Shown here: positions 15,981 through 23,335 of the stretch, piece by piece
Layout of the letters: the number at the start of each line of letters is the position of its first letter
Numbering within the stretch: the first letter of the stretch is position 1
Source of the DNA: Aliarcobacter sp.
Lineage (GTDB): Bacteria > Campylobacterota > Campylobacteria > Campylobacterales > Arcobacteraceae
Direction of reading: 5' to 3'
DNA: 64,000 nucleotides
Assembly (NCBI GenBank): GCA_028689025.1
Contig: JAQTXA010000012.1
Location: forward strand, 1 to 64,000
Notes under the pieces: generated by a model
What the model was told of the DNA's origin: nothing
What the model saw: only the letters and a program-made list of their open reading frames with translations
The model's database searches: none
Program-made: the position numbers and the translations under genes

Positions 15981-16071
15981 GGACAGTTGGGTGAGCTGGC
16001 TGAAACCACCTCCCTGCTAAGGAGACGTGCTGGTAACGGCACCGAGGGTTCAAATCCCTCACTGTCCGCCA
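15981..16071 (+). tRNA. tRNA-Ser (GCT)
   Basis: 91 bases with encoded CCA. The acceptor stem is GGACAGT/ACTGTCC with G discriminator, the anticodon GCT is at 16016-16018, and there is a long variable arm as expected for serine tRNA. It is the first of ten tRNAs in the array. Confidence 0.93.
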
Positions 16072-16078
16072 TTATTAT

Positions 16079-16155
16079 GGGTTATTAGCTCAGCTGGTTA
16101 GAGCACTCGGCTCATAACCGAGTGGTCGAAGGTTCGAGTCCTTCATAACCCACCA
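16079..16155 (+). tRNA. tRNA with CAT anticodon, elongator Met or Ile2
   Basis: 77 bases with CCA. The acceptor stem is GGGTTAT/ATAACCC, anticodon CAT at 16113-16115, anticodon stem CTCGG/CCGAG. It lacks initiator features. Whether it is elongator Met or the Ile tRNA whose wobble C becomes lysidine cannot be settled by eye; the tRNA at 16553-16629 is the other candidate. Confidence 0.88.
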
Positions 16156-16217
16156 CTATTTTAATTAATAGTTTTCACTTTTTGTGATTTTAAAAATGTG
16201 TTTCGATACATTTTTAT

Positions 16218-16294
16218 GCGGGAGTAGCTCAGTTGGCTAGAGCTTCTGCCTTCCAAGCAGACTGTCGCGAGTTCGAGTCTCGTCTCCCGCTCCA
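16218..16294 (+). tRNA. tRNA-Gly (TCC), copy 1
   Basis: 77 bases with CCA. The acceptor stem is GCGGGAG/CTCCCGC, anticodon TCC at 16252-16254. It is identical to the copy at 16351-16427. Confidence 0.93.
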
Positions 16295-16350
16295 CTATTA
16301 AATAGAATTGGTAATACTATTTAATTTTTATTAATTTTACCAAAAGTGAT

Positions 16351-16427
16351 GCGGGAGTAGCTCAGTTGGCTAGAGCTTCTGCCTTCCAAGCAGACTGTCG
16401 CGAGTTCGAGTCTCGTCTCCCGCTCCA
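16351..16427 (+). tRNA. tRNA-Gly (TCC), copy 2
   Basis: 77 bases, identical to the copy at 16218-16294, with anticodon TCC at 16385-16387. The spacers differ beyond the gene ends, so the duplicated unit is little more than the tRNA itself. Confidence 0.93.
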
Positions 16428-16465
16428 CTATAATCTGAATAGATTAATCGTTCTTTTATTTATAT

Positions 16466-16542
<77 letters not shown>

Positions 16543-16552
16543 ATTTTTAGAT

Positions 16553-16629
16553 GTCAAGGTAGCTCAGCTGGTTAGAGCGCTGGTCTCATAAGCCGGAGGT
16601 CGAGGGTTCGAGTCCCTCTCTTGACACCA
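16553..16629 (+). tRNA. tRNA with CAT anticodon, Ile2 or elongator Met
   Basis: 77 bases with CCA. The acceptor stem is GTCAAGG/TCTTGAC with a G-T pair at its base, anticodon CAT at 16587-16589. It is not an initiator. It is the partner candidate to the tRNA at 16079-16155 for the Met/Ile2 pair. Confidence 0.88.
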
Positions 16630-16647
16630 TTTCGAAAGAAATACGGC

Positions 16648-16723
16648 GCTGGTGTAGCTCAGTTGGTAGAGCAGCTGATTTGTAATCAGCAGGTCGGGAG
16701 TTCGACTCTCTTCACCAGCTCCA
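16648..16723 (+). tRNA. tRNA-Thr (TGT)
   Basis: 76 bases with CCA. The acceptor stem is GCTGGTG/CACCAGC, anticodon TGT at 16681-16683, anticodon stem GCTGA/TCAGC. Confidence 0.93.
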
Positions 16724-16742
16724 TATTTAAACTTTATTTTCT

Positions 16743-16817
16743 TGGGGTATCGCCAAGTGGTAAGGCAACGGTTTTTGGTACCGTCACTCGAAGGTTCGAA
16801 TCCTTCTACCCCATCCA
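16743..16817 (+). tRNA. tRNA-Gln (TTG)
   Basis: 75 bases with CCA. The acceptor stem is TGGGGTA/TACCCCA, anticodon TTG at 16775-16777. The discriminator is T, where E. coli has G. Confidence 0.92.
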
Positions 16818-16878
16818 CATAACTTACTTATTATAAAATCTAATTAATACTTGATACTGTTAATTTTTTACAACTAAT

Positions 16879-16955
<77 letters not shown>

Positions 16956-16999
16956 AATCTTTCCTCTAAAATGGAAAATTATTCATATACTATATTTAA

Positions 17000-17076
<77 letters not shown>

Positions 17077-17336: not shown

Positions 17337-17873
17337 ATGAGTGATAGATTACATGAAATAATTGGACAAATAGGTGTTTTACACAATCAATTATTAGAGA
17401 ATAAAAAAATAAAAGATGCAAATGAAGTATTTGAATTTATAAAAAATTATGATAAAGATATACAAAAACATTATTTAGATTTATTATTACAATATTATTT
17501 CCAGAAAAATGATTTAAAAAATTTAAAAGAGTTATTATTAGTTGGTGCAAAATTTGATATTAGATTTGAAGATGTTAAAGAGGCATTTTTAAATATAAAA
17601 TCAGAAGATGAAAATGTTATAGAGTTTATGGAAGATGCAGTTGTTTTTATAAAAGAAAAAATCAATGAAGTAGATTTAAAAGATATTTATAATTATTATA
17701 CAAATAACAATCAATTACAAGATATGTTGAATTCTTCAATAGAATTAATCAAAAGAAATAGATATGTTTGTGTTTATTGTTTTCATAATTTAGAGAGTGT
17801 TTACGGAAAGTTCTTTTTAAATAAAGATTTATTGGAATCTCTAAAAAGAGATTTACCATATTTGTTAAAATAA
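17337..17873 (+). CDS. Hypothetical protein, 178 residues
   Basis: I do not recognise this protein. It is soluble, rich in K, D, E, L and N, and predicted mostly helical, with no membrane segment and no clear catalytic motif. Two cysteines sit near residues 142-145 (YVCVYCFHN, a CxxC pair). It has a good ribosome site (AGAGGAAG) and its own promoter. The membrane protein gene begins nine bases after its stop, so the two probably form a unit. Confidence 0.7.
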   Translation: MSDRLHEIIGQIGVLHNQLLENKKIKDANEVFEFIKNYDKDIQKHYLDLLLQYYFQKNDLKNLKELLLVGAKFDIRFEDVKEAFLNIKSEDENVIEFMEDAVVFIKEKINEVDLKDIYNYYTNNNQLQDMLNSSIELIKRNRYVCVYCFHNLESVYGKFFLNKDLLESLKRDLPYLLK

Positions 17874-21506: not shown

Positions 21507-21614
21507 TTTTTGCCTTTTTAATTATTAAAAGGATTATAATTAAACCAAAGTTAGCATAAGATTAGTTTTTATCTACTATAAGGTACAATTTCAAAAATTT
21601 CAAAAGGAAATAGT

Positions 21615-22490
21615 ATAAAAAATTTTAAAAAAGTACATATCGAAATCACAAATATTTGTAATTTAAAATGTACATTTTGTCCTCCCAAAATTCAACCAAA
21701 TGGAATAATGAGCTTAGAAAAATTTGATGATTTAAATGCTCAACTAAAACCATATACAAAAGAGTTAGCTTATCATATTGTTGGTGATCCATTGGTATTA
21801 ACAAATTTAAATGAATATTTAAATATTAGCCTAAAACATGATTTAAAAGTAAATATTACAACAACTGCAAATAATATAAATGAAAAGCACTACTATGCAC
21901 TTATGAATCCCACAATTAAGCAAATAAATTTTTCAATAAACTCATATAATGCAAATTCACACAAAAAATCACTTGATGAGTATTTAAATCCAATTTTAGA
22001 TTTTGTTAAATTTGCCCAAAGTAAAAATCATGAATATTTTATAAATTTTAGAATCTGGAATTTAGATGAAGAGAAAAGTGCAAAAGAGTTTAACAAAAAA
22101 GTATTTGATAAAATAAATCAAACTTTTAATTCAAATATAGATATTGATGAAGTTTATAATGAAAAACCAAAGAATATAAGAATAGCTAGAAAAATATTTT
22201 TTAATTTTGATGAGTATTTTTCTTGGCCAAATTTAGAAAATGGAATAGTTTCAAAAAGTGGATTTTGTTATGGATTAGATTCTCATTTTGGAATTTTAAC
22301 TAATGGTGATGTTATTCCATGTTGTTTAGACCAAAATGCTTGTATAAATCTTGGAAATACAAATACTACACAACTGGATGATATATTAAATTCTCAAAGA
22401 GTAAAAGCGATTCAAAAAGGTTTTAAAAACAATATTTTAGTTGAAGAACTTTGCCAAAAGTGTGAATATCGAACAAGATTTGATAAATAG
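21615..22490 (+). CDS. Radical SAM/SPASM protein, apparent ATA start
   Basis: The first canonical start in this frame is the ATG at 21708, but the frame is open upstream to TAA at 21579. The upstream part encodes KVHIEITNICNLKCTFCPP, the radical SAM CxxxCxxC cluster motif, which the shorter form would lack. No ATG, GTG or TTG lies in that extension. AAAAGGA (21602-21608) is six bases before ATA at 21615, giving 291 residues beginning (M)KNFKKVHIEIT. The C-terminal SPASM-like region has GFCYGLDSHFGI, VIPCCLDQNAC and LCQKC. The substrate is unknown. It is followed eight bases later by the EI24 gene. Confidence 0.75.
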   Translation: MKNFKKVHIEITNICNLKCTFCPPKIQPNGIMSLEKFDDLNAQLKPYTKELAYHIVGDPLVLTNLNEYLNISLKHDLKVNITTTANNINEKHYYALMNPTIKQINFSINSYNANSHKKSLDEYLNPILDFVKFAQSKNHEYFINFRIWNLDEEKSAKEFNKKVFDKINQTFNSNIDIDEVYNEKPKNIRIARKIFFNFDEYFSWPNLENGIVSKSGFCYGLDSHFGILTNGDVIPCCLDQNACINLGNTNTTQLDDILNSQRVKAIQKGFKNNILVEELCQKCEYRTRFDK

Positions 22491-22498
22491 GAAAAAAG

Positions 22499-23335
22499 AT
22501 GAATGAAATTGAAATTATATTAAAAAGTGTAAAAGATTTTTTTACAAGCTCAATGCTAAAAATTGCGCTTGTACCATTGATTGTTACCATGATTATTTTA
22601 TATATGTTATTTTTTACAGCAGCTGATTTTGGAATTTCTTCACTTCAAGAAATTGCACAAGCTTCTCAAAATGGTCAAGAAGTAGTTATTGATGAAAATG
22701 CTCCATTTTATTTTGTTTGGATGACATATTTAATTGTATTTTTATTTAAATACTCATTTACTTCATGGATTGCTGGTTTTTTATTTTATACTATTGGAAC
22801 AGTGATCGTTTTACAAGCTTCTGTAGTTTTATCAATTATTGTAATTGGATTTTTAACACCAATGATTTTGAAAATTTTACATAGAAGATACTATTCTCAT
22901 CTAGAATTAAAAGGATATGGAACTGTAGTTTTATCTATTTGGGTTTTAGCAAAAAGCTTATTTATGATGGTTTTTTTATTTTTAATTCTAATTCCTGTTT
23001 ATTTTGTGCCAATTTTAAATGTATTAGCTTTTTCTTTGCCTTTTTACTATTTCTTTCACAAGCTTTTAAATTTTGATGTTTCTTCAACAATTTTAAGTAA
23101 AGAGCAATTTAAAACAATTTATAAAGCAGAAGGAAATAATTTTAGACTTAGAACTTTATTTTTATATTTTGTTTCAATGATTCCATTTGCAACACTTTTT
23201 ACAGCTGTTTATTACATAATTTATTTAGGACATGCATATTTTACAAAACTTGATGAACTAACTAAAAATGAGTTAACAAAAGATGAAGTAATTAAACCAG
23301 ATTTTATAAAACTTGAATCTAATGCAAAAAACTAA
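22499..23335 (+). CDS. EI24 domain-containing membrane protein
   Basis: 278 residues with about five or six membrane helices, including a long central block (residues 75-185) typical of the EI24/CysZ family. In other bacteria CysZ imports sulfate, but Campylobacterota members of this family are not proven to do so. The N-terminal LKSVKDFFTSSMLKIALVPL segment is typical. A GGAAAA site precedes the ATG. Its end overlaps the glycerophosphodiesterase gene by 14 bases, indicating coupled translation. Confidence 0.75.
   Translation: MNEIEIILKSVKDFFTSSMLKIALVPLIVTMIILYMLFFTAADFGISSLQEIAQASQNGQEVVIDENAPFYFVWMTYLIVFLFKYSFTSWIAGFLFYTIGTVIVLQASVVLSIIVIGFLTPMILKILHRRYYSHLELKGYGTVVLSIWVLAKSLFMMVFLFLILIPVYFVPILNVLAFSLPFYYFFHKLLNFDVSSTILSKEQFKTIYKAEGNNFRLRTLFLYFVSMIPFATLFTAVYYIIYLGHAYFTKLDELTKNELTKDEVIKPDFIKLESNAKN

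Follow-up and report, generated by a model that had tools for sequence, protein, structure and literature searches.

The window, a stretch of 64,000 nucleotides from an Aliarcobacter genome, carries a radical SAM/SPASM gene that offers no conventional start codon ahead of its catalytic motif (Table 1). As the sequence-only reading had claimed, in-frame ATG, GTG and TTG codons are absent from the upstream stop to the CxxxCxxC motif, and AAAAGGA stands six bases before the ATA proposed there as the start. The TACAAT that it had named as a -10 box is also present, one base to the left of the position it had given (21585-21590). The same reading had warned that automatic calling would trim away the cluster motif, and the mechanical ORF caller does begin the gene at 21708, past the motif, as it does in two relatives. 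A coding-signal scan of the window also flags the gene, including the stretch before Met32; the other entries of that scan are mostly antisense in appearance. RNA structure over the start was unremarkable in the one leader that was folded (z 0.72).

Table 1. Features at the radical SAM locus and in its surroundings, in window coordinates.
Feature	Position	Strand	Remark
tRNA array	15981-17076	+	ten genes, five of them tRNA-Met(CAT); about 4.5 kb upstream of the radical SAM gene
178-aa protein	17337-17873	+	no Pfam family matched
In-frame TAA	21579-21581	+	closes the reading frame upstream of the radical SAM gene
TACAAT, likely -10 box	21584-21589	+	leader would be about 18 nt, judging by distance
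AAAAGGA, Shine-Dalgarno	21602-21608	+	gap to ATA of 6 nt (21609-21614)
ATA, proposed start codon	21615-21617	+	T at -1, A at +4
Radical SAM/SPASM (twitch) gene	21615-22490	+	291 aa counted from ATA, stop included
CNLKCTFC, radical SAM cluster motif	21657-21680	+	Cys15, Cys19, Cys22; CxxxCxxC pattern
ATG of Met32	21708-21710	+	first canonical in-frame start, 3' of the cluster motif; rejected as true start
Cys218, Cys236, Cys237, Cys280, Cys283 of the C-terminal SPASM/twitch part	22266-22463	+	invariant in both alignments; Pfam SPASM
EI24/CysZ Pfam family gene	22499-23335	+	directly downstream of the radical SAM gene

The identity of the product as a radical SAM/SPASM enzyme is firm on the profile matches, with 39.6 bits to Pfam Radical_SAM (cut-off 29.5) and 46.7 bits to Pfam SPASM (cut-off 21.5). 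None of the 20 NCBIfam equivalog families listed (MoaA, PqqE and others) reaches its cut-off. The three cluster cysteines are invariant in alignments of 19 and 30 rows. BtrN gives the best match in the profile search (E 1e-15) and also in the fold comparison (4m7t; E 9.7e-12, TM-scores of 0.60 and 0.70), and it shares with the protein the radical SAM twitch architecture, a similar size, the cluster motif and the C-terminal cysteines. At 16% identity this similarity of sequence and fold is remote, however, and a shared reaction is not claimed; a BtrN-like radical SAM enzyme is the best reading of the profiles and the structure model. A pseudogene is ruled out by the full open frame, the invariant cysteines and the third-position bias of the changes, which between two relatives number 27, 12 and 61 at codon positions 1, 2 and 3.

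An orthologue search recovered the gene in 93 of 104 genomes of the Arcobacter family. The start region was taken from all 93, and 91 loci were readable, a run of N over the start (L010) and a contig end (L101) accounting for the two dropped. The codon aligned with 21615 is ATA, ATT or ATC, together termed AUH, in 72 of the 91 (49, 20 and 3 loci, respectively). In L082 and L040 it lies one codon later; L040 also carries an ATG in frame, 15 codons ahead of the anchor. The remaining 17 loci have a canonical start. AUH is found in all readable genomes of groups g1, g2, g3, g6, g29, g30 and g36-g41 and in 14 of 15 of g33; the canonical starts belong to g7, g32, g34 and g35 (14 loci), g4 (two) and a single g33 locus, L066. 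In L087, which is included in the 72, no more than 3 nt separate the Shine-Dalgarno from the AUH codon, so the next codon, an ATA, is the likelier start. Outside the family, all 47 of the named loci L165-L211, mostly from Sulfurimonas, Sulfurospirillum, Sulfuricurvum and Sulfurovum, have an ATG, GTG or TTG start, usually one codon closer to a conserved Phe, and L035/L164, likewise from outside, has ATA at the aligned column with TTG two codons later. The named loci number 80, of which 79 were readable (L135 was dropped), and overlap the 93 family loci.

These orthologues strongly support the ATA as the likely start, and they contradict two further suggestions of the sequence-only reading: a recent change from ATG to ATA, since a non-AUG codon is common to most of the family, and a sequencing error at 21617, since relatives have AUH at the same codon. 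The check it had proposed, whether orthologues begin with ATG at that codon, found no readable case within the AUH clade. L034 and L083 (both g4) and L066 appear to be returns to ATG or TTG inside the clade and offer natural revertants for comparison; AUG or UUG would thus be tolerated there.

Two alternatives would place the true start elsewhere. If the AUH codon were an ordinary conserved isoleucine within a protein begun further upstream at another codon, selection on the isoleucine would likewise confine it to ATA, ATT and ATC, and some loci do have longer open frames holding an upstream TTG, GTG or ATG. A canonical in-frame codon of some kind lies between the upstream stop and Cys15 in 23 of the 72 AUH loci, and in L015, L029 and L030 an ATG is found two codons upstream of AUH, directly abutting the Shine-Dalgarno. 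Against this stand the 49 AUH loci in which that interval contains no ATG, GTG or TTG, among other observations. In eight of the 72, an in-frame stop falls two codons upstream of AUH, and the codon left between the two is not start-like (GTT, ACT, AAA, AGC, AAC or AGT). The GG core of a Shine-Dalgarno precedes the AUH codon by 5-8 nt in 71 of 72 loci; among 101 ATG genes of one relative with a GGA core, the spacing has its mode at 6 nt. Of the 72 loci, 54 have a -10-like TANNAT ahead of the codon, 48 of them at a spacing of 22-29 nt (the 18 loci lacking the box include 13 of the 14 from g33); the distance from box to AUH shifts in single-base steps. An internal isoleucine is therefore very improbable, and the combination of the ATA start with the Shine-Dalgarno register is, as judged from the aligned loci, more than chance. 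A product beginning at Met32, as chosen by mechanical ORF calling, is scarcely credible. Met32 is invariant in the alignments, but it is just as invariant where a relative uses an ATG start further upstream, and the stretch before it has coding signal and contains the invariant cluster motif. The first strand of the structure model (pLDDT 89.4; residues 6-9) also precedes Met32 and immediately precedes the cluster cysteines, so that initiation at Met32 would remove the cluster site.

A third alternative accepts AUH as the start and denies it a regulatory role, its weakness being tolerated where expression is in low demand and its retention owed to drift in an AT-rich genome. The three apparent returns to ATG or TTG, which show no visible harm, and the Shine-Dalgarno, which is short rather than extended, are in its favor. 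The behavior of the third letter is harder to reconcile with drift, because ATA becomes ATG by one transition. In a quickly built tree of 98 proteins, which has long branches and scores L035/L164 as AUH, the AUH label must have changed no fewer than 4 times. Within AUH the third letter must have switched between A, T and C a minimum of 12 times, and never to G inside the AUH clade. Two codons on, where A/G flips are frequent, codon 3 (mostly AAA/AAG, Lys) changes at least 20 times on the same tree, and its third base in the 72 AUH loci is A in 35, G in 35 and T in 2. A published reconstruction also speaks against drift, in that switches to AUG are commoner there than switches away from it, with AUG to AUU accounting for 1 of 61,358 (PMC5622118). 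Drift of this kind is therefore considered unlikely, and the pattern suggests that a weak start has been kept by selection.

The bases flanking the codon are biased as well. T occupies -1 in 58 of 72 AUH loci versus 76 of 192 canonical starts in one relative, with a Fisher p of 2.8e-9 that is only indicative, as the family loci are related rows and their counts not independent. A occupies +4 in 68 of 72 versus 96 of 192 in the same type of comparison. A U at -1 is able to pair with A37 of the initiator tRNA, and an A at +4 with its U33.

Within the sampled part of two genomes, the AUH start is specific to this gene and not a genome-wide habit. Two relatives contributed 800 kb each, about 30% of either genome, and 336 orthologous genes from these stretches passed a real-gene filter. 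The scan looked for AUH codons present in both relatives, preceded by a Shine-Dalgarno and lying ahead of the first canonical start that the two have in common. Thirteen ORFs were raised, the radical SAM gene among them. When the 5' ends of the other 12 were read, nine had ATG starts, and three short ORFs (70-96 aa) look like non-coding shadows; apart from these three, the radical SAM gene is the sole survivor of vetting. An alternative filter was set aside because it would miss the radical SAM gene, whose start codons fall at different columns in the two genomes.

An initiator tRNA with a changed anticodon was considered and rejected: the fMet-type loops all read CAU (pattern search, 21 genomes, 44 matches), and matches with other loops (such as TTT, TTA, TTC and ATA) were set aside. 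The IF3 gene does not share the AUH codon class either. infC of the family starts with TTG in all 18 loci readable among 31, the 13 others not being recognized by the motif and left out, so self-control of IF3 of the same class cannot be invoked. The TTG start of infC (AAT TTG AGT) is conserved in L044 (at about 1468) and 17 further loci; in L044 the start overlaps the end of the preceding gene.

Based on these data, a model that we consider quite probable would have translation begin at the AUA at 21615, on a short leader whose AAGGA Shine-Dalgarno, six bases ahead of the codon, sets the position, with the ordinary CAU initiator tRNA reading the codon through a third-position mismatch. The AUA/AUU/AUC class would be old, having taken the place of an ancestral AUG early in the history of the Arcobacter family, and would have persisted because an AUG there would drive translation too strongly or escape regulation. 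Output would, for that reason, be low and probably sensitive to IF3 or to initiation status. In this model we infer initiation at 21615, low output, IF3 control and a benefit; a regulated low-level start fits the conservation of the codon and the literature on other such starts. A more tentative extension, which is possible but less likely than not, would make the AUG-avoiding start a sensor of the state of initiation, through IF3 or the supply of initiator tRNA, that switches the radical SAM enzyme with growth. Because A, U and C replace one another at the third letter, selection would then be holding the weakness itself, with U at -1 and A at +4 keeping the site usable. If true, control of the IF3 class would be operating in bacteria that begin their own IF3 gene with UUG.

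Starts of this kind are already known from infC, pcnB, sigR and ccpN; what sets the present case apart is which gene is involved, how widely the start occurs across the family and the absence of an extended Shine-Dalgarno. According to published work, infC starts with AUU in E. coli, ATC in Streptomyces and AUA in S. aureus, so that the same class of start has been long kept with a third letter differing between lineages (PMC5472188, PMC13009471). In contrast, the gene described here encodes an enzyme, the family's own infC uses TTG, and IF3 control is putative. The S. aureus genes ccpN (AUA) and cvfC1 (AUU) likewise have conserved starts, reported to work at about 10-30% of the AUG level (PMC13009471). 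Those reporter levels pertain to the S. aureus genes, whose Shine-Dalgarno is strong and extended, whereas all 72 AUH loci have sites of four to five bases, such as AAGGA, AAGG or TAGGA. Streptomyces sigR is described as having a GTC start repressed by IF3, non-canonical in 32 of 34 species, GTT in two, and misplaced by annotation (PMC5472188). It resembles the present case in the conservation of a non-canonical start with drift and in the annotation error, and differs in its codon, in encoding a sigma factor and in its long Shine-Dalgarno, AGGAGGTG. None of the 72 AUH loci has an extended strong site of the sigR, ccpN or cvfC1 type; what they have across orthologues is a conserved non-canonical codon in register with a Shine-Dalgarno. 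In E. coli pcnB, a different gene with an AUU-class start, the inefficient AUU is stated to limit expression (PMC9410913), and a further study describes how IF3 rejects weak pairing at the third base in vitro (PMC10158994).

AUH starts have been described for few genes, and the radical SAM case spans most genera of one bacterial family. The literature library that was searched contained no paper joining Arcobacter, start codon and AUA, and none joining Arcobacter, radical SAM and SPASM; one preprint reportedly treats genes preferring non-AUG starts. The orthologues form a natural series of ATA, ATT, ATC, ATG and TTG starts, most with similar Shine-Dalgarno sites, and thereby make directly testable why a start that ribosomes discriminate against should be kept. 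More generally, calling starts only at ATG, GTG and TTG strips the catalytic motif from a conserved enzyme: since the gene seems to start at AUA, AUU or AUC in most species examined, simple gene callers lose the catalytic end of its product.

The surroundings of the gene recur in part among relatives. Three of the five tRNA-Met(CAT) genes in the upstream array have an initiator-type anticodon stem, and in L021, L022 and L149 an array of tRNA-Met, tRNA-Thr and tRNA-Gln lies 1-2 kb upstream. In L148 the gene immediately before the radical SAM gene encodes an orthologue of the 178-aa protein with the same final residues, and the last codons indicate the same arrangement in other g33 loci; in the window other genes intervene. 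On the downstream side, L021 and L148 also have an EI24/CysZ-like protein after their radical SAM gene.
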